From positions 1 to 46,058 of the IMG/VR virus record IMGVR_UViG_3300021479_000029: a stretch of 46,058 nt of DNA, one strand, 5' to 3'. Positions 804 through 22,332 of the stretch are shown piece after piece. The notes under the pieces are model-generated. The model saw only the letters and a program-made list of their open reading frames with translations. It had not been told where the DNA came from and ran no database searches. The position numbers and the translations under genes were made by a program. Positions within the stretch are counted from its first letter, which is position 1; the number at the start of each line of letters is the position of its first letter. Source of the DNA: a virus.

Positions 804-1714
804 TTGGGCGCTCCGAAGACTGCATTCTCGAATGCGTTCTCGTAGGTCGTCGCGGCCTGGGTCGCGCCGTACTCAGGCAGAGCCTTGGCCTGCTGGGCGG
901 CCAGGAAGTTCTTGGCGTCGGCCGAGTAACCGCCCTGGGCGGTCTGCTTGGTCGTGGCGATGACGTTGCCCATCGCGTCGTACTGGTTGGTCGTGGCGAT
1001 CTGGGTCGGGTTGCTCTGCTCGGCGGTCTGCAGGGCCGAGGCGTAGGCGTTCATCTCGCCGGGCAGCGGGTCGCGGCCCAGCAGCTGGTGGAAGATGTTG
1101 GTCGCGATCGCCTTGGCGGTGGTGGGGTCGGTCAGGTTCACCTGCGTGGTGTTGATCGTCCTGAACTCGGGGCCGATGTAGCGGCGTTCACCCGTGATCG
1201 TGTTGGTCTCGAAGTAGCCGTTGGCGTCCTTCTTCCACACGCCCGCCGTGGTCGAGTTGGTCACGTAGGTGTTGAGCACGTCGAACGGGCTGACCTGCTG
1301 ACCCTGTGCCCCGAAGATGGACGCCTGCTTGACCAGCTTGGACCACAGGGCGGCAGCCTCGATCTGCCCGTCGCCCACCTTCAGCTGGCCCGACATGATG
1401 CCGACGGCGGTGAAGTCGTTGATCTGCTTCTGGGTCCAGGTGCCGAAGTTCGCCTCGGCCGCCTGGATCGACAGCCAGGTGGGCATGACGCGCGTGCCGG
1501 AGTAGTCATGACTCTGACCCTGGCCGCCACCGGCCGGGGTCAGGTTGCCGAAGTAGACCTGGCCGGAGCTGGACGAGGTCTGCATGCTGGCCTGGATCTG
1601 CGCCAGCGCGGCCGACTCACCGGGCGACAGGGCGGTGCTGCTGGCCCCGGGCACCGTGGGAGCGAAGGCTGGCGTGTAGACCGGGGGGGTGGTGACGTCA
1701 CCGATGAGAGCCAT
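800..1714 (-). CDS. Virion structural protein, 304 aa, function unknown
   Basis: Encodes 304 residues from ATG 1714, which overlaps the upstream stop as TAATG; its own stop overlaps the NlpC/P60 start. The N-terminal 60 residues are low-complexity Pro/Ala/Ser/Thr. The centre is Gln/Asn/Thr-rich, and a segment around residues 195-240 contains IFHQLLGRDPLPGEMNAYAS. No enzymatic motif is visible. It sits between a giant virion protein and two peptidoglycan-cleaving virion proteins, so an internal or ejection protein, or a tail-tip partner, is the likely role. This is inferred from position and composition only. Confidence 0.75.
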   Translation of the reverse strand: MALIGDVTTPPVYTPAFAPTVPGASSTALSPGESAALAQIQASMQTSSSSGQVYFGNLTPAGGGQGQSHDYSGTRVMPTWLSIQAAEANFGTWTQKQINDFTAVGIMSGQLKVGDGQIEAAALWSKLVKQASIFGAQGQQVSPFDVLNTYVTNSTTAGVWKKDANGYFETNTITGERRYIGPEFRTINTTQVNLTDPTTAKAIATNIFHQLLGRDPLPGEMNAYASALQTAEQSNPTQIATTNQYDAMGNVIATTKQTAQGGYSADAKNFLAAQQAKALPEYGATQAATTYENAFENAVFGAPK

Positions 1715-4700
1715 TACGCACCTGCCTGCGGGTTAGTCGGCTGCGGGGCACCCGCAGCCAGCGCTGCCGCTGCGGCGATAGCCGTGGCCTCAGCGGTGTC
1801 CATGCCCATGTCTCGCGACAGGTATCGGTGGTAGAGGTTGCCGAAGTTCACATCGCCCTCCACGAAGCCCTGGACCGCCCCGGTCCAGGTGGACAGGAGG
1901 TCCGAGTTGGCGGGTGAGTTCAGCAGGTTGCTGCCGCCGCCCAGCTTGCGCTGGTCCAGCATCTGCTGGATCACCTGTCGCTGCTGAAGATAGTCCCGTA
2001 GGACCCGCAGGTCACTGCGGTTCGGGTTCTGGGCCAGCGGGCCGTTGGCCAGCGACTCAAGACCCGGGATCAGCCGGTCGTACTTCAGCTTGTCGTAGGT
2101 GGTGTAAGCCTTCGACCAGGCGTCGTTGTAGTACGGGTTGCTGGTGCCGTCGGGCAGCAGCGGCTGCTGCAGCATCTGGGTGTAAGCCTTCTTCATGGAG
2201 TTCAGGTCTTCAGCGCCCTTGTCCTGGAAGGTCTTGAGTCCACGGGAGAACAGCTGGGCGTTGAGGTCGTTCATCACGCCCGTGTACTTGGCCCAGCCCA
2301 GGCGTGCCTGGTTGTCGGTCATCGCCTGCTCGGCCGTCATCTTGGTGCGCATCATCTCGCTGGACCCCGGCGAGACCGGGGTGTTCAGCTCATAGCTGTA
2401 AGCCTCCGGCGAGAAGGGGCCGTTGCCCTCCGGGCCGATGATGAGCGCCGCCAGGTCGGGATTCTGGGCGATCAGGTCCCGGTACTTCTGCTCCAGCCTG
2501 ACCGCGTTGACGGTCGCCCCCGCGCCCGAGACGTTCTTGGAGATCGACTGGGCGAAGACGAAGTAGCTCTCGCCGTAGCGGCTCAGGAACTGCTGGTCGG
2601 CGGTCTTCGGGTCGGTGCGCAGCAGGTTGTTGTACTGGTTGCGATAGAAGGCGAAGGGGTCGGGCCGCTGGCCCGCCACCGGGCCGAGGAAGGCGGAGGC
2701 TGCCGAGAACCGCCAGTAGTCCTTGACCTGGTTGGCGATGTCTGTGGCGGAGGGCATCGGCGTACCCGTGGTGGCGTGCCGGTAGTAGGCGTCCTGCATG
2801 ATCTGCAGCTTCACCTGCTGGTAGCGACTGTCCGAGGTGTTGTAGCTGATCAGGAAGTCTCGGATGGTCCTGGGCAGTACCTGGTCCACCACGCGACCAG
2901 CGAGGCCGCCAGGGGCCGTGGAGACGCCGAAGGGAAGCGCGCCGATCTGGCGCGCCACCAGGGCGTCTGTCGGCTTGTCCTTGACGAACTCGTTGAGCGG
3001 GATGGTGACGATCGGGCCCTCACCCGGGTTGAACCAGGGGTCGCCCGACAGCACCAGGTTCATCGAGTCCTGGGACAGGTTGATGTTGCCCTTGGAGCTG
3101 GCGCTGGTCAGCAGGCCGAAAGGCGACAGCAGGCCGTTGGCCAGGCCGAAGGGCACCCGGGCCACGATGCGCCGGTTGCTCAGCGGCACCATCGACCAGG
3201 TGTTGGTGGTGGGGTCATAAGCCTTGCCGTCAGGCTGGACCGTGTTGCCGTTGCCATCCTGGATGATGCCGACCGACAGCGGTGCGTTGAAGAAGCGCGT
3301 GGCATATCCGGCCACCTCGGGCCGGTCCACGATGATCCGACTCCAACGCTGCCACCCCTCGAGGGTGGCAGCGAAGAAGGGGGCGATGATGCGCATGCCG
3401 CTCATCGCGTCCGACTTGTGGGCGATGGTGAAGACCAGGTTGCGGGTGTCCTTGAGCGCCAGTCGGCGCGCGGTCTCCGCGATGCGCTCCGCGTCGGCCA
3501 CGGTGTGGACCACGCCCTGCTTGGCCTCGCTGGCCATGATGGTCTGGGCGTGACCCTCGTAGAGCTGGTTGTACAGCGGGTGCACCGACCAGCGCTCGGA
3601 GGGCAGGGTGGCTACGGTGTCGAACCAGTGCTGCATGACCCGGTCCAGCACGCGGTGGTAGCGCAGACCGGCGATCATGTTCTCCCCGAGCGCCGGGGAG
3701 ATCGCGTCGGGCCGGTTGTTCGGGTTGGGGATCGCCTGACCCAGGAAGGACTGGCTCACGCCTTCAGGCGTGAGTGCCTGACCGGCGATCTCCGGCAGGG
3801 GGGCCATCTCATGCGCGTCATGGGCGATCGAGTTGGCGACCTCCTCGACCGGAACCAGCGGCATGCCGAGACGCTTGCGGTAGATGGACCCCTCGGCGGT
3901 CTTGAACCAGTCCAGCAGATTCTGTGCGGACTCCTCAACCGAAGTGCCCTGGGTGATCTCGCCCAGCACCCGCCTGGAAGCGGTGTCCTGGGCCATCTGG
4001 GCATTGAGGACGTGCATCCAAGAGGTGAGATGCAGCTCCGGGTTGTCCAGCGCCCTGACGGGCACTGCACCATTGCCGAAGGACCGCATGATGTTGCCCT
4101 GGATCAGCTGCTTGTTGGTGTTGAAGACGTTGCGCAGCGACTCATCCTGGCTGAGCAGCTTCATGAAGTACTGGCCGCGCTCGCCGTTGAACGCGCCGGG
4201 GATCGGCACGCCGTTCATGACCTTCATCTGCGAGCCCTGGATGACCTTGGCCTGCCGGGCGTCCGCCTCTTCGGCGGCGCGCTGCGACAGGTCGCGGAAT
4301 CGCTGCAGGTGACCCTGCTGCAGCAGCATGTCGTTGAGCTGGATGGTCTTGCCGGGCGACGTCTTGGTCAGGCGCATCTGCGCCTGGCTGAGCGCCAGCT
4401 GACGCTTGTCGAGAAGCTTCTGCATGGCGTTCAGCCGGGAGGTCGGGGTGGTGGCGTCAGCCTGCAGCGCCACCATCTTGTCGCTGGCCGCGAGGTGGAG
4501 CTTCTGGGCCCTGGCGAACTCGTTGGCCCGCAGGCGGGCGTCCCCCTCAAGCAGTTGCTGGGACTGCTTGATCTGCGGCTCCAGTCTGGCCAATTCATCG
4601 TTGGCGTAGTCCACGCCGACCCGCTTGGTCGCGGCGGCTGCCTGCCAGTAGGGCTTCTCCAGCATCATGGCGGCATTGGTCGCCAGATTCTTCACGCCGT

Positions 4701-6843
4701 ATCCGGCGCGCAGTGCCATCGAGGCCATGCCCAGTCGGGCGATCTGGCCGCCCAGGTCGTCACCGAGGACACGGGGGATGTACCCGAGTCGGAACAGGGT
4801 GCCGAACTTCCACGCCTGCTGCAGGAACTCGGTTCCTGCGAGTGTCGCGTCGTAGGCGTCGCCAGCCTTGACGTGCAGCGCCTGCAGCGCTCCACTGTGC
4901 CGGTTGAGCACTTGGTCATAGGTGTGCAGGTCGGGCAGGATGTGGTCGTTGATCAGCCTGGAAACCAGGTTGGGATGGATCGACAGGGCGGTTCCGTCGA
5001 CATGGAAGGCGTCGATCGGGACCGGGTTCTCCTCGCCCGGCATCGACAGCTTGCCGGTGGCGTACTGCCGCATCTTGTCGATCTCAGCGCCCTTGCGCTT
5101 CTGCGCCTCCCTGTACAGCGCCTCGCCGAAGTCGGGGGTCATACCGTTCTTGACGGCGATCTTCCCCATGGCCAGCTTGCTGACGCTCTGCAGCACGTCC
5201 AGCCGCTCACCCGAGTCGGCAGCCTTGAGGTACTGGTTGATCATGTTCTGGCGCACCTGCGGACTGATCATCGGGATGCGCGCGACGAAGCCGCGCAGCT
5301 CATTGATCGAGTCCTGGGTGACGTCGTCCAGGCTGATGAAACCGTGCGGGGTGAAGTTGCTGAAGGAGCGCAGCAGGGTGACCGGGGTGGAGAAGAAGTT
5401 GGTGGCGATCCTGCTCTTGATGATGCCGCTGCTGACGTTGGGCGCGTCCAGCCACTTGGCGGGACCGGCGATACCGACGCCCGGCGTGATGGTGGCCCGA
5501 TAGAAGCCGCCCTTGGCGGGGCCCACCGCATAGGCGTTCTGGGCCTCCTGCGTCGCCGCTGCGCGGGCGAAGGCCATGCGGCCCATCTTGACGTTGTCCA
5601 TCTCGCCCGCATGGGCCAGGATGCCCTTGTAGCGCGTGACGAGACCCTTGTCGGCAGCGACCCCTGCTTCGATCTGCGCCATGCGGTCGGTGACCAGCTT
5701 CATGGCCATGGGGTTGGACCCCATGCCGCTCACCGTCAGGTCGAGACTGGACAGCCGGTTGGTGTCCGTCTCGATGCGGGCGGCGGCAGCCGCGTTCTGC
5801 GACTCCAGTAGGGCCTTGGCCGCCTGGTCTCCCATGGAGACGCGCATGAAGAGGTTGACCTCGTCGGGGCTCTTCAGTGTGGAGACGATCGCGCCCAGGC
5901 GAGGGCCCATCGCCGACTTGCTGGCGATGGGCAGCTGGTTGATCAGCTGCGGGTTGTCCTTGTTCTGCCAGAGAAACTGCTGCGCCTTGGCCATCGTGGA
6001 GTTGTTGACCAGCGCGTTGATGTCCTGCCCGGACCAGCCGATGTCCTGCGGCCTGCCGGTCAGCCTGCTGAGTATCTTGCCGCCCACGGTCGGCATGGGG
6101 GCGACCTTGGGAATGACGTTCAGCGAGTTGCCGGTGAAGGGATGAGCCAGCAGGTCCGAGAAGGAGGCGGGAGCCTCCACCTGCGTGGCGCGGATGTGGC
6201 CGATGCCCTTGCCCAGCAGGACGGTCGGGTCGATCTCCCAGCCCGCCACGAAGTCCAGGGAGCCGGAGCCGTACTTGAAGGTGTTCGAGTCGCGCCTCAG
6301 CGACTCGATGTACTGGTTGCCCACGGCGGGCATGCCTGCCTGCTTGAGCATCTGGTTCTGCTGGTCCTGGGGCAGGGTGTTGAAGCCCTGCGGCAGGATC
6401 GCGTCGGCAGGCTTGTAGTACTGAAGCGGGCTCGCCTCAGCCAGGGACGCCTGTCCCTGGTCCGGGTTGAGCATGAACGCCTGACCGGGCGAGATGTGCT
6501 GCGCGGCAGTCCACGCCTGGCCCCAGTTGTGGCTGTTGAAGAAGAAGCCCGGGTTGCCCGCGTACTGCTTCTCCGAGCCCTTGCTCGCCACCAGCAGGGC
6601 GGTCGCCAGGGGCTGGCTGATCGCCTTCTCGCGGAACCAGTTGGTCGCCGCCATGGCCGATTCCAGCTCGGGGGCGAGTACACCCTGACTGGGGCCACCG
6701 GTCTGCCCGGTGGTGCCGGGGGCGTTGGGGAACTGGCTGGCAGCCTTCGCCGGTTCGTCGAACGGGTTGATCGCCTTGTTGATCGCGGCGGCACCGGAGT
6801 AGACCGCCGCGATGCCCTCGGCGATGATGTCGCCGATGCCCAT
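1714..6843 (-). CDS. Giant virion protein, 1,709 aa
   Basis: The largest gene of the genome, starting at ATG 6843 four bases after the previous stop. The N-terminus (IIAEGIAAVYSGAAAINKAI) is small-residue-rich and weakly hydrophobic. Residues of roughly 745-865 are Gln/Ala/Leu/Arg-rich and look alpha-helical or coiled-coil. The C-terminal 15 residues are Ala/Pro/Gln-rich. I see no Walker motif, no convincing RNA polymerase motifs of the N4 virion-polymerase type, and no glycosidase signature. Size, helical composition and its place before peptidoglycan hydrolase genes resemble the large internal ejection proteins of podoviruses. That role is inferred; it could also be a tail-hub or injection-tube component. 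Confidence 0.8.
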   Translation of the reverse strand: MGIGDIIAEGIAAVYSGAAAINKAINPFDEPAKAASQFPNAPGTTGQTGGPSQGVLAPELESAMAATNWFREKAISQPLATALLVASKGSEKQYAGNPGFFFNSHNWGQAWTAAQHISPGQAFMLNPDQGQASLAEASPLQYYKPADAILPQGFNTLPQDQQNQMLKQAGMPAVGNQYIESLRRDSNTFKYGSGSLDFVAGWEIDPTVLLGKGIGHIRATQVEAPASFSDLLAHPFTGNSLNVIPKVAPMPTVGGKILSRLTGRPQDIGWSGQDINALVNNSTMAKAQQFLWQNKDNPQLINQLPIASKSAMGPRLGAIVSTLKSPDEVNLFMRVSMGDQAAKALLESQNAAAAARIETDTNRLSSLDLTVSGMGSNPMAMKLVTDRMAQIEAGVAADKGLVTRYKGILAHAGEMDNVKMGRMAFARAAATQEAQNAYAVGPAKGGFYRATITPGVGIAGPAKWLDAPNVSSGIIKSRIATNFFSTPVTLLRSFSNFTPHGFISLDDVTQDSINELRGFVARIPMISPQVRQNMINQYLKAADSGERLDVLQSVSKLAMGKIAVKNGMTPDFGEALYREAQKRKGAEIDKMRQYATGKLSMPGEENPVPIDAFHVDGTALSIHPNLVSRLINDHILPDLHTYDQVLNRHSGALQALHVKAGDAYDATLAGTEFLQQAWKFGTLFRLGYIPRVLGDDLGGQIARLGMASMALRAGYGVKNLATNAAMMLEKPYWQAAAATKRVGVDYANDELARLEPQIKQSQQLLEGDARLRANEFARAQKLHLAASDKMVALQADATTPTSRLNAMQKLLDKRQLALSQAQMRLTKTSPGKTIQLNDMLLQQGHLQRFRDLSQRAAEEADARQAKVIQGSQMKVMNGVPIPGAFNGERGQYFMKLLSQDESLRNVFNTNKQLIQGNIMRSFGNGAVPVRALDNPELHLTSWMHVLNAQMAQDTASRRVLGEITQGTSVEESAQNLLDWFKTAEGSIYRKRLGMPLVPVEEVANSIAHDAHEMAPLPEIAGQALTPEGVSQSFLGQAIPNPNNRPDAISPALGENMIAGLRYHRVLDRVMQHWFDTVATLPSERWSVHPLYNQLYEGHAQTIMASEAKQGVVHTVADAERIAETARRLALKDTRNLVFTIAHKSDAMSGMRIIAPFFAATLEGWQRWSRIIVDRPEVAGYATRFFNAPLSVGIIQDGNGNTVQPDGKAYDPTTNTWSMVPLSNRRIVARVPFGLANGLLSPFGLLTSASSKGNINLSQDSMNLVLSGDPWFNPGEGPIVTIPLNEFVKDKPTDALVARQIGALPFGVSTAPGGLAGRVVDQVLPRTIRDFLISYNTSDSRYQQVKLQIMQDAYYRHATTGTPMPSATDIANQVKDYWRFSAASAFLGPVAGQRPDPFAFYRNQYNNLLRTDPKTADQQFLSRYGESYFVFAQSISKNVSGAGATVNAVRLEQKYRDLIAQNPDLAALIIGPEGNGPFSPEAYSYELNTPVSPGSSEMMRTKMTAEQAMTDNQARLGWAKYTGVMNDLNAQLFSRGLKTFQDKGAEDLNSMKKAYTQMLQQPLLPDGTSNPYYNDAWSKAYTTYDKLKYDRLIPGLESLANGPLAQNPNRSDLRVLRDYLQQRQVIQQMLDQRKLGGGSNLLNSPANSDLLSTWTGAVQGFVEGDVNFGNLYHRYLSRDMGMDTAEATAIAAAAALAAGAPQPTNPQAGA

Positions 6844-7781: not shown

Positions 7782-8071
7782 TACTCACTTACCTTCCTGG
7801 TCGTGCCGTGCGCCGCGCAGTAGCGCGGCCTCGGCCCACGGCCACCCCACGGCTTGGGGGCGTCCTGGCAACCCTCCTGGCGGCAGGATGCCTGCTCCTG
7901 GTCGAAGGGAGTGGCGTCCTCCTCCTCGGCCTCCTCTTCGAGGGGTTCCTCGACGTGCTTGACCTTGGCCTTGTGGGCGTTCCTGCATCCGAGGTGGTGG
8001 CCCTCTTCGCGGCCACACCGGGGGCACTCGTGCACCTCCGGCTCCACGGGCAAGTCGTAGTAGACGGTCAT
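7781..8071 (-). CDS. Zinc-finger-like small protein, 96 aa
   Basis: ATG 8071 overlaps the portal stop as ATGA, so the two are probably translationally coupled. The N-terminus has CPRCGREEGHHLGC, the C-terminal half a second cluster (SCRQEGC, then YCAAH), and an acidic Glu-run lies between (EEPLEEEAEEED). Two likely zinc sites flanking an acidic linker suggest a small nucleic-acid- or protein-binding factor. No known family was recognised. Confidence 0.7.
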   Translation of the reverse strand: MTVYYDLPVEPEVHECPRCGREEGHHLGCRNAHKAKVKHVEEPLEEEAEEEDATPFDQEQASCRQEGCQDAPKPWGGRGPRPRYCAAHGTTRKVSE

Positions 8072-9924
8072 CCTGTCGGCTGCCTTCGCATCACTGCTGC
8101 ACGGAGATCCGGCTTACCGCTGGAGCTGAGTCCGGCGAGAAGCGTCTGGAGGTCGGGTCGGCCTCCAGGGCCCATAGTTGCCTGCCCGGGGGCGATGCCC
8201 ATCGGCTCGCCCGTCTCGGGGTTGATACCGGACGGCCCCCCCGGACCGCCGGGGCCACCGGGCCCGCCAGGGCCCGGCTGTCCAGGTGCACCAGGTGGAC
8301 CCTGCTGCTGGCCGGGTGGCGGAGCCACCGGCTTGAAGGCGTCCAGGATGGCCGTGTGCATCGGCGTCCCCTTCTCGCGCTTCTCGATGATCATGGCGGC
8401 CTTGGACAGGATCTCGGTGGGGTCCTGCCCCTGCTGGGCCAGGATGCCGATCGAGGACAGCATGGCGAAGACGCCCTGCTTGAGGGCGTCGGTCACCTGC
8501 TCCGTGTCCACCTGTCGCTGGAGGGCGGTCACGTCCACGTCCATGGGCAGCTGCCGCTGCACGAAGTCGCGCGGGACCAGCTGGTCACCACGCAGCTGCA
8601 GCAGGAAGACCAGGGCCTGGTTCGGGTTCATCCCCGCCGCGAACCCGTAGGAGACCGAGACCGTGTAGTCCTTGGCGATGTCCCGGGCAGGCCGGTAGGT
8701 CTCCTCGAAGGGTTCGCCGTTGACGATCCCCCGGATCTCCTTGGTGTGGTCCGGCCAGAACTTCTCATCCATCTCGAAGCAGAGCTGCAGGGCTTCGCGC
8801 AGTGCCTCGCCGATCAGCAGCTGGCCGGTGGCCACCTGGATGTCGTAGCCGCCATTGAGGGCGTCCACGCCCTTGCCGGTGATGACCGACGCCTGGAGGT
8901 TGCCGGTGGAGGCCGGAGGGGTCCGGCTGCCCATCATCATGTCCTGCTGCAGAACCTGCTCCTGCTGCCAGGCGACCGAGGGCACGTCCGTGCCCACCCG
9001 GCGGATCTTCTCCGGGCTGTTGGTCCTGATGATGGCGTCGTCGCCGAAGGGGATGCGCTGCACGTCGGTGGGGATCGCGAGCGGTGCTCGCACCGTCTGC
9101 TGGGTGGCCTGCAGCCCGAGCAGGGCCATGCGGGCCCTGGCCATGTGCACCCAGATCACGTCGTCGAACTGGCCGCGCGTCTCGTGGTCGTAGGACGGCT
9201 TGAAGCCGATGACGACCGGCACCTTGCCGAACTGGTTGGCCGACCACATGAGGAGCAGGTTGGAGCGCTCCGGCATGTAGAGCAGGTACTGGTCCTTGTC
9301 GAAGTACTTGACCACTTCGAGCAGGGTGTCGGGGGCCGTCTCGTTCATCGGGCCACGGTCGTAGCCCATGATCTGCGGAGCGAACTCGGGGAACTTGTCG
9401 GCCAGCTTCCAGGCCGGTTCCCGCCAGACCTTGGTGTAGCTGATGACCCGGCCCTGCAGATCCACCTGGGGGTAGGTGTTCATCGGGTTGTCGAACCGCA
9501 TGACCGGGCGACCGGCCTTGAAGTCGGGCTCCACGATGATCGGCAGCATGCCGTAGGAGATGTAGTGGTCGCAGCCGACCGGCATCTTCTTGCGCAGGTC
9601 GCTGTGCAGGATGTAGCTGTAGGCGATCTTCGTGCGCTTGGCCGAGAAGTTCTTGGCCCGCGCGCTGGTCTCGATGCCGGACGCGCAGTTGATCGAGGGC
9701 AGCGGGGCCAGGTTCTCCGCCAGCTGGCGGGCGGCCACGTCGATCCAGTTGGCGACGATGGGCTTGGGCCAGGCGTCCGGGAAGGAGCCGGGCATGACCT
9801 CGTCGGTCTTGTTGGACCGCACGTTGTAGACCTGCTGCATGCGCCCGTCGCGCTCGGAGGCGTCACGGCGCAGCGCCTGCACCTTGCGTGCGATCGCGGT
9901 GATGTTGACGGCGACAGCTTCCAT
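8068..9924 (-). CDS. Portal protein, 618 aa
   Basis: Start chosen at ATG 9924 because GGAGGT precedes it by four bases; a TTG 15 bases upstream lacks a site. Length, position after terminase, and alpha/beta content around MPVGCDHYISYGMLPIIVEP and ARMALLGLQATQQTVRAP fit a dodecameric portal, the DNA gate at the head vertex. After residue 535 the protein becomes collagen-like Gly-X-Y (PGAPGQPGPGGPGGPGG) before a short Gln/Leu-rich end. Such a tail is unusual for portals. A lysin gene lies between terminase and portal. Portal identity is by overall resemblance and context rather than one diagnostic motif. Confidence 0.8.
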   Translation of the reverse strand: MEAVAVNITAIARKVQALRRDASERDGRMQQVYNVRSNKTDEVMPGSFPDAWPKPIVANWIDVAARQLAENLAPLPSINCASGIETSARAKNFSAKRTKIAYSYILHSDLRKKMPVGCDHYISYGMLPIIVEPDFKAGRPVMRFDNPMNTYPQVDLQGRVISYTKVWREPAWKLADKFPEFAPQIMGYDRGPMNETAPDTLLEVVKYFDKDQYLLYMPERSNLLLMWSANQFGKVPVVIGFKPSYDHETRGQFDDVIWVHMARARMALLGLQATQQTVRAPLAIPTDVQRIPFGDDAIIRTNSPEKIRRVGTDVPSVAWQQEQVLQQDMMMGSRTPPASTGNLQASVITGKGVDALNGGYDIQVATGQLLIGEALREALQLCFEMDEKFWPDHTKEIRGIVNGEPFEETYRPARDIAKDYTVSVSYGFAAGMNPNQALVFLLQLRGDQLVPRDFVQRQLPMDVDVTALQRQVDTEQVTDALKQGVFAMLSSIGILAQQGQDPTEILSKAAMIIEKREKGTPMHTAILDAFKPVAPPPGQQQGPPGAPGQPGPGGPGGPGGPGGPSGINPETGEPMGIAPGQATMGPGGRPDLQTLLAGLSSSGKPDLRAAVMRRQPTG

Positions 9925-9955
9925 GGCACCTCCGTTCAATGGATCACTGTAGGGG

Positions 9956-11170: not shown

Positions 11171-13060
11171 CTACCAGCGTCCACCCCAGCCATATGAGCC
11201 CCCCTGGGCAACTACGAAGTCCATGTCAATGGTGATTTGATCTTCAGTGTCCCTCAGTGACGTGAACTCGTTGCCCAGGTGGTATCCGTCGTGCTCGACC
11301 TCAAGCAGTTCCCGGCAGCGAATCTCGGCGAACCACAGGGCCATGACGGTGTCCGTCTTGCCCTTGGTCGCAGGGAACCATGAGCACAGCTGCTCCACAA
11401 GGTTGCGGACACCCTCGCTCTGGTACCGGCTCGGCAGCTCGATCAGGTTGCGGCCCAGCTCGTGATCGGAGAAGAGGAGGGCCATCGAGGCGACGCCGAA
11501 GTCGGAGTCCCACTTGTTGCCGTTGGTGAAGTGGCCGGTGATCAGGCAGCCACGGCTGTTGCAGAAGGTCCGCAGGTCTTGGTCCTGGATGATCGAGCCC
11601 TGGAAGGCGTTCTTCTCGATCCGCCACTCCTGGATGCCGTACCGCTCGGTCCAGGTCTTGATCAGGTCCCTCAGCTCATGAGGGAGAGTCCCTGCGCGAT
11701 TGAAGACGTCAAGGACATAGCGGCGGCCCGTTGAACGGTCCAGGCCAATGACCACAGCGGCCGTGTGACCTGTGGTCGCAGGGTCGAGACCCGCGACGAC
11801 ATACAGCCCGTCCATACCGTACTTCCGGTGGCCCATCTGGCCGCCGAACATCCGTCCGGCGTACCTGCGGGACTCGACACAGCCGATCACGTCCTTGGTG
11901 GGGAAGATTGCGTCATCGCTGACCTGCTGCTGCATGTAGACGAGCGTCCAGTTGCGCGGGCTCATCTTCTTGCGCTTGCGGGCCAGCGCCTCGCCCGACC
12001 ACATCGGCCAGGTGCCGTCCTCGTTCTGCTGGACCACCTTGCGGGCCTGCACCGAGACGGGGGGCCGGTTGGTGGCGGGCCACAGGGTCACCCAGTCCTT
12101 CGGGTCCTCGGCGTACTCCAGGACGGCAGGCTGGGTCAGGTAGGTCCAGGGGGAGGTGTCCTCCGGGTAGTACTCGGGCTTCAGGATCTCCGAGTACAGG
12201 TCGGTGGTCTCCATGCGGGTGCCGATGAGCAGCATGCGCCCGCCGCCGTCGGCGACGCGCGAGCCGACCTGCTTCTGAATCCAGTCGATCTGCTTGGCGT
12301 ACTCCTGGTGGTTGGTGTGGTCCACGCAGTCGTCCATGATGGCCAGGTCACAGCGGGAGCCGTAGATGTGCCCCTTGATGCCGACCGCCTGCACGGTCGG
12401 GTCCTTCTCGCCAGAGTCGCGGCCGGAGACGTAGATGCGGTCTGCCGACCAGCTGGTCGCCTCGGCGGCGAAGCCGCCCGAGGGCCCGAAGTCGGTCTGC
12501 AGCTTGTAGTAGGTGTCCGACTCGGCGAGTCGGTCCTTGATGGAGACCAGGAACTTCTTGGCCATGTCCTGGGTCTTGGAGACGATCAGGATGCGGACGT
12601 TGGGGTCCTGGCAGATCCGCCATACCACGTAGTTCACGGTCAGCACGGTGGACTTGGCGTGCTCTGGGGGGGTGTTCACCATCAGGGAGTCCCAGTCCCC
12701 CTGGATGTACTGCTGGGCCTCGTGCAGGCCCCTGGGGGGCCTTCCCTCCAGCAGGTCGTACCACTGCAGGTGGTGGTGGAACAGGACGGTGTCCAGGTAT
12801 TGGGCGCTGAACTCGGGGAAGTCGGGGATGTCCCGCCGGTTCTCCGCCGTCTTGGCCATCAGCCCGTGCCTGGCCTCATCGGCCAGCTGGCGGAAGTTCG
12901 GGTCCTTGCGGCGGTAGATGTCGTAGGAGCTGCGGCTGCGGCCTGCCGACTTGCAGGCCGCCTCCACCGAGAAGCCTGACCGCAGAGCGGCCAGGATGGT
13001 CTTCTTGCTGTTCTCGGCGCTCTGGCGGTCGCCCTGCCCGCCCAGGTAGATCTTGGCCAT
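11171..13060 (-). CDS. terL: Terminase large subunit, 629 aa
   Basis: DNA-packaging motor. ATG 13060 overlaps the previous stop as TGATG. The ATPase half shows a Walker-A-like TPPEHAKST at 130-138, a Walker B CDLAIMDD at 237-244 and a coupling-type LLIGTRMETTD at 278-287. The nuclease half shows AGLDPATTG with Asp426 and DTVMALWFAEIR near the C-terminus, as in RNase-H-fold terminase nucleases. Residues 16-65 carry an extra helix-turn-helix-like segment (ILAALRSGFSVEAACKSAGR) resembling small-terminase or homeodomain-like DNA binding. No separate small terminase gene was recognised upstream, so the N-terminal extension may supply DNA recognition. Confidence 0.95.
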   Translation of the reverse strand: MAKIYLGGQGDRQSAENSKKTILAALRSGFSVEAACKSAGRSRSSYDIYRRKDPNFRQLADEARHGLMAKTAENRRDIPDFPEFSAQYLDTVLFHHHLQWYDLLEGRPPRGLHEAQQYIQGDWDSLMVNTPPEHAKSTVLTVNYVVWRICQDPNVRILIVSKTQDMAKKFLVSIKDRLAESDTYYKLQTDFGPSGGFAAEATSWSADRIYVSGRDSGEKDPTVQAVGIKGHIYGSRCDLAIMDDCVDHTNHQEYAKQIDWIQKQVGSRVADGGGRMLLIGTRMETTDLYSEILKPEYYPEDTSPWTYLTQPAVLEYAEDPKDWVTLWPATNRPPVSVQARKVVQQNEDGTWPMWSGEALARKRKKMSPRNWTLVYMQQQVSDDAIFPTKDVIGCVESRRYAGRMFGGQMGHRKYGMDGLYVVAGLDPATTGHTAAVVIGLDRSTGRRYVLDVFNRAGTLPHELRDLIKTWTERYGIQEWRIEKNAFQGSIIQDQDLRTFCNSRGCLITGHFTNGNKWDSDFGVASMALLFSDHELGRNLIELPSRYQSEGVRNLVEQLCSWFPATKGKTDTVMALWFAEIRCRELLEVEHDGYHLGNEFTSLRDTEDQITIDMDFVVAQGGSYGWGGRW

Positions 13061-13284: not shown

Positions 13285-13560
13285 CTACATCACCTTGCGG
13301 GCTTTCCCACTAAAGGACGGGTATGCGAAGCGCCTGACTTTTCGGGGGGCCTTGCTGGCAGGCTTCCTCTTCCAGTCGGAAGGCTTATGCCCGGCGAAGG
13401 TCTGCCCGCTGAGGATCTTGAGCTGGTTGGACTCAAACTGCCTCCAGCCCTCTACGCAGGCCCGGTGGGCCCAGGAGCCCATCCACCTGCCGATCGGGTC
13501 GCCAGGGGCGACCTGGGCATTGCACAGGGGGCAGGTCCCGGGGAACTTAGCCGACAACAC
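13285..13560 (-). CDS. Zinc-ribbon-like basic protein, 91 aa
   Basis: Starts at GTG 13560 inside the end of the upstream ribbon-helix-helix gene (14-base overlap). Residues 8-37 hold CPLCNAQVAPGDPIGRWMG followed by AHRACVEGW, a Cys2-His-Cys zinc-binding arrangement. The C-terminal 40 residues are Lys/Arg-rich (WKRKPASKAPRKVRRFAYPS), suggesting nucleic acid binding. It lies in a position where a packaging or regulatory DNA-binding protein would be expected. Function not recognised. Confidence 0.75.
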   Translation of the reverse strand: MLSAKFPGTCPLCNAQVAPGDPIGRWMGSWAHRACVEGWRQFESNQLKILSGQTFAGHKPSDWKRKPASKAPRKVRRFAYPSFSGKARKVM

Positions 13561-13723
13561 GCTTCATCTCCTGGTCGATCAGGCTCTTGATGTATCCGGA
13601 CATGCTCATCTTGTGGGCGGCGGCCAGGACCCTTAGCTTGTCCCGCTGAGTCGGGTACATGTGGACAGGCACCCTGACCAGCGCCTCGACCTTGGTCTCG
13701 GCTTGAAGCTTGTTGATTCTCAT
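13547..13723 (-). CDS. Ribbon-helix-helix DNA-binding protein, 58 aa
   Basis: ATG 13723 chosen because the product then has exactly the size and order of a ribbon-helix-helix protein: a short N-terminal strand (ALVRVPVHMYPTQ), a helix (RDKLRVLAAAHK), and a second helix after MSMSG (YIKSLIDQEMKRV). Upstream residues in the same frame look non-coding. This first gene of the leftward unit faces a region with two small inverted repeats just upstream, so autoregulation at 13742-13786 is a reasonable inference. It could also be a partition-type or plasmid-copy-type regulator. Confidence 0.8.
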   Translation of the reverse strand: MRINKLQAETKVEALVRVPVHMYPTQRDKLRVLAAAHKMSMSGYIKSLIDQEMKRVVG

Positions 13724-13741
13724 AAGGCGTAACCTATCACG

Positions 13742-13786
13742 GTGGGTACAGTAGACCCACTGCCGACCTTGCCAGTAAACACTGGC
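13742..13786 (-). promoter_or_regulatory. Candidate operator/promoter of the leftward unit
   Basis: Two inverted repeats lie 19-64 bases upstream of the ribbon-helix-helix start: GTGGGT/ACCCAC at 13742-13760 (7-base loop) and GCCAGT/ACTGGC at 13771-13786 (4-base loop). On the minus strand a TAGGTT lies further downstream and resembles an actinobacterial -10, but no good -35 is evident. The most likely function is an operator for the first gene product. Confidence 0.4.
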
Positions 13787-13851
13787 AGCTTCAGGGGTTG
13801 ACTTCATTAGGTGGCATCATGTGGAATGAGGGCGCAGTCGCGCGCGCTGTT

Positions 13852-14486
13852 GCGCCGACCGCAGGAGAGATAGGTCGGCGCGCTGGCCGAGGAGCGGGCC
13901 ACAAGGGCCCGCGAGCGAGGGGCGAGGCCGGAATCCCGGTAGGGGATTCCGATACGCGCTCGGCTCGGTATCAGCCGAGCCGAGCAGGCCGGGGTTTAAC
14001 AACCCCGGGTCAAAGCAAGGCCCAGCGGCCTCCAGGGCCGCTGGATGCAAGGCAGATGAGGCCATCTGCCTTCGGATGCCAGGTTGGGAGCCTGCCCGGC
14101 TCCCAACTCAGCGGACTGACCATGCAGTGGTCAGTCCCAAGCGGTGAGGCCATAAGCGGACTCACCATCAAGGGTGAGTCCAGCAGTGAGCAGCCATAAA
14201 GGCTGCTCACGCAAGCGTGAACGGCAGGCTTAGCCTGCCTGCCTGCACTGGAGTGCAGGCAGGCAGAGCAGCGTTACTCCGTAACGCGTGACGCAGTCAC
14301 GCTGCTGCTGCACACCTGCGGTGTGCAGCAGCGCACAGCGTGAGAGCTGCGCTCTCACACAGCCTGAGGCTGTGCTTGCAGCACAGCCTCAGAGGCAAAG
14401 ACAGCTGAAGATCCTTCGGATCTTCAGGCTTGCGTGCATGCGCGCGTTGCACGCGCACACGCACGCGCGTGAGGCTGCGCCTCACG
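13852..14486. repeat. Tandem array of about 20 perfect hairpins (non-coding)
   Basis: Consecutive perfect inverted repeats fill 635 bp almost without gaps. Stem outer limits and lengths: 13852-13881 (9 bp), 13894-13912 (7), 13930-13950 (8), 13958-13985 (11), 13989-14008 (8), 14022-14044 (9), 14049-14072 (10), 14083-14107 (10), 14113-14137 (10), 14158-14181 (9), 14186-14210 (10), 14223-14239 (7), 14236-14265 (13), 14271-14287 (7), 14286-14302 (7), 14304-14332 (13), 14340-14358 (8), 14364-14392 (12), 14405-14427 (10), 14432-14454 (7), 14468-14486 (8). Loops are mostly 3-6 bases. Stem sequences differ from one another, and the stems listed are Watson-Crick without G-T pairs. No convincing gene overlaps it. 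Inferred roles: replication origin, transcription insulator, packaging element or structured RNA. Confidence 0.92.
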
Positions 14487-14749: not shown

Positions 14750-14789
14750 GCGGGGTGAGTCGGTCAGCTGTGCAGCCGAGCCGACTCGG

Positions 14790-14885
14790 CCATGATCCAC
14801 AGGCCTCTCAGGCACCCCTATGGATCATGGAAAAGCCATGATCCAAGAGAGCCGCAAGGCCATGATCCAGCTGTCTCTGATCATG
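14790..14885. repeat. CCATGATCCA repeat cluster (iteron/operator-like)
   Basis: The 10-mer CCATGATCCA occurs at 14790-14799, 14836-14845 and 14860-14869, and inverted as TGGATCATGG at 14821-14830. The inverted copy and the second direct copy form a 10-bp hairpin with loop AAAAG. A partial inverted core GATCATG follows at 14879-14885, and a one-mismatch copy (CGTGATCCAC) at 14948-14957. A small GCCGAG/CTCGGC hairpin precedes at 14775-14790. Repeated short sites near a structured region fit a replication-initiator or repressor binding array; the binding protein is unknown. Confidence 0.65.
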
Positions 14886-14959
14886 CTCTGTACCGTTAAT
14901 GGCCGTTCACATGTGAGTTAGTCCGTGCCGAAAAGGCCAGGTCAGAGCGTGATCCACAT

Positions 14960-20692: not shown

Positions 20693-20760
20693 GCGCTGTG
20701 GCCCTACGGCCAGCCGGGTGATCAGACCCGGTGATCCCACAGGAGAGGACAACCAACATC

Positions 20761-22332
20761 ATGGCAGACCGCAGCAACATGGATCGCGAGCTGGCTCGCC
20801 TGATCCAGGCCGCCGAGCACGCGGAGTCGGGCCGCCTCCCGTCCACCGCCAAGCAGGACAAGAACGCGCAGACCAAGGCGGCCATCCTGGAGGCGATGGC
20901 CAAGCTGGGCGGCAACCTCGTCCAGGAGGACGCCCTGCACTTCCGGGGCACCGAGTTCATCCTGCCGGAGCAGTACAACGGCAACACGGCCGGGGCCATC
21001 AAGTTCCTCCAGGACCAGATGGAGCAGCAGGAGAAGGTCCATCAGATCCAGCGGATCTTCAAGTACCGGCCCAACGACGTGGCCAACGCCATCCAGTCGG
21101 TCATGAAGACGATGTACGGCACGACCGGCCTGGGCAAGGACACCATGACCATGTTCGGTCCGGTGCCGCCCACCTTCCGCACCATCAACGTGGGCCTGGA
21201 CCGGACCGCCCAGGTCCCGGCCGGGCTGATCGAGTTCCCCCCGATCGACGGCACCTTCAACGTGACTGCCACCCGTGACCGGGAGCTGGGCATGCTGGGC
21301 GCGCTGGTCGTGGAGTGCCCGCGCAAGTACCGGGGGCACGTGGAGGGCTTCTTCACGGCGGTGGAGGCATACCTGGCCGAACACTCCATCTACCGGGGCC
21401 AGGCCATCGACGGGGCCGAGGACCCGTCCTTCCTGGACACCTCCAAGGTGGACCCGACGGCCGTCGTCTACTCGGACGCCGTCCTGGAGGAGCTGAAGGT
21501 CCACCTGTGGGCCCCGATCGAGCACACCGACCTGCTGCGCTCGCTGGGCCAGCCCATCAAGCGGGCCGGGCTGCTCTACGGCAACTACGGCACCGGCAAG
21601 TCGCTGGCGGGCTACCTGACCGCCCAGATCGCCCAGCGCAACGGCTGGACCTTCCTGTTCGTCCGGCCCACGGACGACCTGGACGCGGCCCTCAAGACCG
21701 CCCAGCTGTACAGCCCGGCCGTGGTGTTCTTCGAGGACATCGACGTGGTGGCGGAGCAGGGCAGCCCGCAGAAGATCAGCCAGCTGCTGGACTCCTTCGA
21801 CGGTGTGACGTCGAAGGGCAAGGAGATCATCGCGATCCTGACCACGAACCACGTGGACCGCATCCACAAGGGGATGCTGCGGCCCGGCCGCATGGACGCG
21901 ATCATCGAGATCGGGGAGCTGGACGCCAGCGGCGTCCGCAAGCTGATCCGCAGCAAGATCCCGGCCGACATGCTGGCGGCCGACGTCGACTTCGCCGCAG
22001 TGGCCGAGTCGGTCAAGGGCTACATGCCCGCCTTCACCTCCGAGGTGGTCAACCGTGCCTTCCGGTACGCGATGGTCCGCAACGGCGGGCGGCCGAAGGC
22101 CAAGCTGGTGACGGACGACTTCGTGACGGCCGCCAAGGGGCTGCGCCCCCACTTCGAGCTGATGAACGATGCTCACGAGGGCAAGCAGCCGCCCAGCCTG
22201 GACGCCGCGCTGCGGCGTGTGATGAAGGACGTCACGGAGGCGACCAAGGTCTACGACAGTGCCGGCGACCGGCACTACAGGGTGCACACCTTCGAGGTGG
22301 GCGACGAGAAGGCGACTCGCGGCAGCGAGTAG
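20761..22332 (+). CDS. AAA+ ATPase, 523 aa
   Basis: A P-loop ATPase of the FtsH/CDC48-like AAA type. Walker A GNYGTGKS is at 274-281, Walker B VVFFEDID at 321-328, a sensor-1-like ILTTNHVDRI near 357, then GMLRPGRMD with a candidate arginine finger and the C-terminal helical lid. The first 250 residues are a separate N-terminal domain, helical at first (MDRELARLIQAAEHAES) and then mixed. Phage AAA+ proteins of this form act as remodelling or helicase-loading factors; the substrate is unknown. The start is ATG 20761, about 12 bases after GGAGAGG. A 12-bp inverted repeat follows the gene. Confidence 0.9.
   Translation: MADRSNMDRELARLIQAAEHAESGRLPSTAKQDKNAQTKAAILEAMAKLGGNLVQEDALHFRGTEFILPEQYNGNTAGAIKFLQDQMEQQEKVHQIQRIFKYRPNDVANAIQSVMKTMYGTTGLGKDTMTMFGPVPPTFRTINVGLDRTAQVPAGLIEFPPIDGTFNVTATRDRELGMLGALVVECPRKYRGHVEGFFTAVEAYLAEHSIYRGQAIDGAEDPSFLDTSKVDPTAVVYSDAVLEELKVHLWAPIEHTDLLRSLGQPIKRAGLLYGNYGTGKSLAGYLTAQIAQRNGWTFLFVRPTDDLDAALKTAQLYSPAVVFFEDIDVVAEQGSPQKISQLLDSFDGVTSKGKEIIAILTTNHVDRIHKGMLRPGRMDAIIEIGELDASGVRKLIRSKIPADMLAADVDFAAVAESVKGYMPAFTSEVVNRAFRYAMVRNGGRPKAKLVTDDFVTAAKGLRPHFELMNDAHEGKQPPSLDAALRRVMKDVTEATKVYDSAGDRHYRVHTFEVGDEKATRGSE

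Follow-up and report, generated by a model that had tools for sequence, protein, structure and literature searches.

Described genome ends and the phage under study

Cultured Streptomyces podoviruses of cluster BF have linear genomes, with a direct terminal repeat (DTR) of 253 bp that was determined from reads in five phages (PMC9753666) and one of 265 bp in Destructrice (PMC13097060); the DTRs in the BF records that we examined measure 253-276 bp. In the linear replicons of Streptomyces itself, 3′ overhangs fold up as densely packed palindromes whose loops are GCA (PMC4513846). Phage N4 is reported to use hairpin priming at the 3′ terminus and to have 3′ single-stranded extensions (PMC3896407, PMC3670811). 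N4 is a podovirus with direct terminal repeats, as is proposed below for the phage studied here. We know of no description of N4 ends that bear an array of ~17 unrelated hairpins.

The locus that we compare with these systems is a hairpin array at 13852-14486 of a viral contig of 46,058 bp, the whole of which we call the window (coordinates below carry a strand only where one was assigned). On one side of the array, a structural unit with the genes for terminase, portal and capsid runs leftward; on the other, an early unit runs rightward, and its genes include a WhiB-like regulator, a PD-(D/E)XK exonuclease, a DnaB-like helicase and a RusA-like resolvase. The gene calls thus agree with a preliminary description of this DNA that had placed the block between divergent early and late units. 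No polymerase was found in the window. The terminase large subunit (11171-13060, minus strand; PHROG 38, E 4e-74) served as the landmark for finding relatives, the portal gene lies at 8068-9939 (minus strand), and a ribbon-helix-helix protein gene (13547-13807, minus strand; Pfam RHH_10 PF23807, E 4e-6) adjoins the array. Elsewhere in the window, 1714-6843 (minus strand) encodes a virion protein of 1709 aa that belongs to PHROG 10618 (unknown function); its PDB matches are only designed Kelch-like repeat proteins, and searches of Pfam, PHROGs and PDB sequences matched it to no polymerase. N4-type hairpin promoters were considered, but a virion RNA polymerase was not recognised in the window. 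Also encoded, at 20731-22332 (plus strand), is an AAA ATPase like proteasome-activating or CDC48-type ATPases, which is unusual at this phage size.

The window shares 55-57% identity in terminase and 52-54% in portal with the cultured BF podoviruses. As judged from these sequences, the window phage is a relative of Beephvirinae / cluster BF, in a distant lineage whose DNA is hardly alignable. Closer relatives occur in Streptomyces isolate assemblies (S. composti, S. himalayensis, S. hoynatensis and two other strains). One of these lies within a scaffold of 7.9 Mb, and integrases are encoded by several relatives, which makes it probable that part of the clade is temperate. Serine recombinases are found in six array-bearing relatives (G003, G009, G010, G014, G016 and G018) and a tyrosine integrase in G012; there is no serine recombinase in the window or in G001, and no tyrosine integrase in the window.

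The window ends in an exact repeat of 127 nt, which looks like a k-mer overlap from assembly. The preliminary description had taken the genome to be circular, and had counted this against ends at the array. That argument does not hold: a linear genome with direct terminal repeats would assemble in the same way, the sequenced relatives are linear with such repeats (PMC9753666), and apparent circularity is compatible with ends here. Likewise, no long terminal repeats were found in full-length contigs with arrays, whose ends show a short overlap, a k-mer overlap or no repeat.

Composition and conservation of the hairpin array

A strict scan, which accepts perfect stems of at least 7 bp with loops of 2-8 nt, found 17 non-overlapping hairpins in the block, with 334 of 635 bases paired; dinucleotide shuffles of the block (n=200) gave 0.5 ± 0.7 hairpins and a maximum of 3. 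The reported array is thus real, although the earlier count of ~20 becomes 17 plus one stem with a 12-nt loop, and the earlier ranges (stems of 7-13 bp, loops of mostly 3-6 bases) become stems of 7-15 bp and, apart from that one loop, loops of 2-6 nt. To say that almost every base belongs to a hairpin was an overstatement, as 64% of the block is spanned by perfect hairpins and 53% is paired. The stems are mostly unlike one another, as had been noted, but a few are similar (e.g. GGACTGACCA / GGACTCACC).

At its terminase-side edge, the block opens with the 9-bp stem that has the 12-nt loop (13852-13881), followed in the strict scan by hairpins at 13894-13912 (stem 7 bp, loop 5 nt) and 13929-13951 (stem 9 bp, loop 5 nt). 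A hairpin at 13958-13985 (minus strand), with an 11-bp stem and the loop CTGATA on that strand, occupies a position conserved among relatives, discussed below as the 'terminus' position. Next to it, the hairpin CCGGGGTT-loop-AACCCCGG (13989-14008, strict scan) overlaps a core motif, TTTGACCCGGGGTTGTTAAAC (13994-14014, minus strand), whose 3′ part lies inside this hairpin. Six hairpins with stems of 9-10 bp and loops of 4-6 nt follow (14022-14044, 14049-14072, 14083-14107, 14113-14137, 14158-14181 and 14186-14210), and then the longest one, with a 15-bp stem and a 2-nt loop (14235-14266, strict scan). The early side, 14271-14486, consists of triloop hairpins that, on the minus strand, have mostly GNA loops (GGA, GCA, GAA) closed by C-G.

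Folded as single-stranded DNA, the block reaches -247.7 kcal/mol (z = -20.6 against shuffles), and its RNA fold is also strong (z -15.8). A search with Rfam covariance models (GOLLD, ROOL and others) returned only a tRNA and no family matching the block. A nucleotide search of the block against the phage collection gave no match, which is expected if the sequence is free. Our literature search on tandem hairpin arrays in phages, whose coverage did not extend to subscription papers, found nothing relevant.

We therefore turn to relatives, which came from two collection scans and whose terminase-upstream regions were each scanned. About 30 distinct phages (terminase identity 57-83%) have an array upstream of the terminase; all are of one viral clade, so that these counts are not independent events. 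Contigs from Streptomyces isolates also carry arrays. Full-length loci have 10-19 perfect stems at -500 to +250 of the motif, versus 0.2-0.9 in shuffles. A terminase tree groups 28 array phages in one well-supported clade; L073, which bears a weaker array, is on a separate long branch. By the scan criterion, a strong array is absent from the cultured BF phages, from L008, L077 and L078, and from a group at ~48%; L082 has a short array run only. The termini of cultured BF phages have a mild excess of short palindromes (z 2.4-5.0 for stems of 5 bp or more). Where the block lies, relatives carry their own arrays and no protein gene. As arrays recur across many independent assemblies and isolate genomes, a misassembly is implausible, and we rejected this explanation.

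The level at which selection acts

Among 162 different homologous hairpin pairs, taken from alignments with identities of 75% or more, 60 stem positions had changed on both sides and yet remained Watson-Crick, 15-24 with the partner slid by 1-3 columns; single changes gave 40 G.T and 39 A.C pairs (these counts include related sequences and are descriptive). Since G.T equals A.C and neither strand is favoured, the pattern speaks against RNA, in which one strand would tolerate G.U. Hairpins with one mismatch have 11 G.T versus 8 A.C, and five of the 11 G.T cases are one conserved hairpin at the array edge. Together with the absence of an Rfam match, these results from sequence comparison argue for selection on DNA folding, or on both strands, and not on RNA. 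They also support the idea that it is being palindromic, and not the sequence, that is selected. On both points the preliminary description had anticipated what the compensatory changes in relatives suggest.

The loops carry a signature of their own. Loops are closed by C-G in 73% of cases and by G-C in 9%. No such preference is left at the third pair, and the outermost pair shows the opposite one; in hairpins from other parts of these genomes, C-G closing is much weaker (Fisher p 2e-25). Like those above, these counts are descriptive and draw in part on related sequences. Because duplex sites that bind dimers would be indifferent to the loop-closing pair, the selected unit appears to be the folded strand, and the signature thus points to hairpins that fold as single strands rather than to dimer-binding sites. 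GNA triloops, which form very stable DNA minihairpins, occur more often on the terminase-sense strand than on the other (35:16, p 0.011). This bias is modest, and a left/right contrast in it is not significant (p 0.12).

Relation to genome termini and competing explanations

Nearly all arrays contain the motif TTTGACCC..GG.TGTTAAAC. In six of the seven cultured BF phages that we examined (Dennebes, Manuel, Zeigle, FlowerPower, ZooBear and Stella), the motif lies exactly 38 bp inside the right edge of the DTR, as measured from the start of the motif to the final base of the left DTR (...GGGGAGTG|AGTCCCC). The seventh record, Abafar, has an end repeat of 396 bp, which means that its record ends are placed differently. 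The terminal repeat region of the cultured BF phages and the window share their gene order, the motif GACCC..GGGTTGTTAA upstream of the terminase and a hairpin at about +38 of the motif, and short palindromes are weakly enriched in BF; unlike the window, the BF phages are without a strong array. The BF cut, GGGGA-GTG|AG-TCCCC, falls in a hairpin loop.

The arrays are anchored to this motif. Across 27 loci, the paired fraction is 0.28-0.52 at -400 to +200 of the motif and falls to a background of ~0.06 beyond about -500/+250, so the borders are sharp, with hairpins from about -500 to +250. A hairpin occupies the 'terminus' position in 24 of 28 array loci, with loops mostly at +36 to +47 that pile up at +41 to +45 (11 of 20 loci vs a mean of 2), close to the place of the BF cut, and its stems belong to several unrelated sequence families. 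In the window, the cut-equivalent position (motif +38, between 13972 and 13971) is inside the loop CTGATA, which spans +36 to +41. The BF cut-site letters GAGTG|AGTCCC are not kept in the window, where the equivalent place reads GCTG|ATACC. Scanning the viral collection with the motif only revealed two new contigs, both with arrays: one has 21 hairpins and the other, which is truncated, has 11. The distance from motif to terminase varies from ~0.5 to 1.7 kb. In cultured relatives, the motif is 38 bp from one DTR edge and about 215-237 bp from the other, which places the predicted DTR-equivalent stretch of the window at 13972-14236 (minus strand).

These observations suggest that the block is a genome-terminus region, whose hairpins would fold as strands become exposed at ends that are made, resected or copied. 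We give this reading as a whole roughly an even chance. Its parts differ in strength: the predicted location at a terminus is well supported by relatives, and a packaging start had been among the candidates of the preliminary description, whereas the mechanism, and the placement of the window phage's own ends at the array, are what we infer from sequence comparisons. The phage would be a linear, terminally repetitive podovirus with the array built around its packaging junction, where the 21-bp motif and the adjacent hairpin may mark the terminase cut. The tight palindromes, which reach about 500 bp towards the early genes and 250 bp towards the terminase, would fold whenever a strand is exposed, as we think happens at the ends when these are formed, when the DTR is copied or when the phage exonuclease resects 5′ strands. 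Folded ends could protect 3′ strands from nucleases and SSB, and the hairpins could offer fold-back 3′ ends or structure-specific sites, in a way similar to Streptomyces telomeres and to what is reported for the ends of N4. Opposite strands bear the 3′ tail at the left and right ends, so a region that folds on both strands could serve both, and a need for both strands to fold would leave wobble pairs untolerated. We count the encoded PD-(D/E)XK exonuclease and RusA-like resolvase in favour of the terminus reading. Against it, the array reaches ~200 bp past the expected DTR edge on the terminase side; the altered cut-site letters in the window, the modest GNA strand bias and the contig ends without long repeats count on the same side. 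As the cultured BF phages keep the motif without a strong array, the array is not essential for DTR formation as such.

A more specific version of the terminus reading, which we put forward tentatively, is a telomere-like phage end set by structure and not by sequence, in which ~15-20 DNA hairpins on both strands, free to evolve but covarying, would protect the ends, prime them or do both, alongside an ordinary terminase. The likeness to Streptomyces telomere palindromes with GCA loops, raised in the preliminary description, is borne out, as array and telomeres share packed palindromes, GCA/GNA loops, the host genus and a scale of a few hundred nt. The telomeres differ from the array in their terminal protein Tpg with Tap and in their conserved palindrome sequences. 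An exact search with a 13-mer that we take to be palindrome I of Streptomyces telomeres found it in none of the fetched loci, and no Tpg/Tap-like gene was matched among the ORFs scanned, a subset of those in the window.

If the terminus reading is true, the arrays would offer a clear example from nature of DNA that is selected for its secondary structure while its primary sequence is almost free. The evidence would be DNA stems that evolve by compensatory changes and do not tolerate wobble pairs, and the structure would be tied to a packaging terminus. It is still poorly understood how DTR phages duplicate and protect their ends; with array phages present in Streptomyces isolates, the question is testable in culturable strains.

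We rank the terminus first, an origin of replication second and a purely mutational cause third. As an origin, the hairpins would load primase, helicase or an initiator in melted or lagging-strand DNA. The intergenic position between divergent units, the apparent folding of the hairpins as single strands and the encoded DnaB-like helicase would all suit this role, and CATGATCCA repeats beside the array (14786-14869 and beyond) could be iterons. However, these repeats are absent from most array relatives, GC skew shows no switch apart from the change in gene orientation, and the fixed distance of 38 bp from motif to DTR edge would go unexplained. An origin, also proposed in the preliminary description, is thus still a candidate, but a rather doubtful one. 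The early-side repeats themselves (GGCCATGATCCA / TGATCCACA; 14786-14869 and 14950-14958) are possible operators or iterons and partly occur in the nearest relative. We rejected an origin based on iterons, as the CATGATC cluster is limited to the window, partly the nearest relative and a few others.

Alternatively, the hairpins could be functionless, if fold-back or template-switch synthesis at ends or stalled forks perfects palindromes. Perfect stems, fast turnover, lack of wobble and C-G closing are all expected of copied fold-backs, and the array is at the predicted terminus. We nevertheless think this unlikely, because selection is suggested by the retention of 10-19 hairpins per 750 bp across the clade, by the sharp borders of the array and by a hairpin whose position is conserved, and because terminal fold-back would give long inverted repeats rather than discrete short stems.

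It is very unlikely that the array is a topological or transcription element, whether as cruciforms that absorb negative supercoils or as bidirectional terminators or insulators. Its position exactly between divergent units and weak terminator-like tails on two hairpins would fit, but terminator-like sites are near chance (2 vs 0.9), which led us to reject a terminator array, and the array is anchored to the motif rather than to gene starts. GC-rich stems also extrude slowly, which counts against cruciforms. A large structured RNA is highly improbable despite the strong RNA fold and a neighbouring hairpin that keeps a G-U pair in some relatives, given the lack of an Rfam match, the equal G.T and A.C departures and an architecture of mostly simple tandem hairpins; neither this nor the insulator proposed earlier found specific support.

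Two further hairpins were seen in relatives. The first, GACCGGGAGGCGTTCTTCCTTCCGGTC, is located about 235-535 bp upstream of the terminase in L034, L027, L033, L059, L054 and L069. It keeps a G-U pair in several relatives, is followed by GAGCTTCGCTGGGTCGAGCTTAGCT in most, and looks like an RNA-level leader element beside the array. The second has a near-invariant 8-nt loop, GCATTACT, and occurs in L022, L015, L044, L028, L070, L051 and L006. It is found on the terminase side of some arrays (e.g. GACCAGG-GCATTACT-CCTGGTC), with compensatory changes in its stem.
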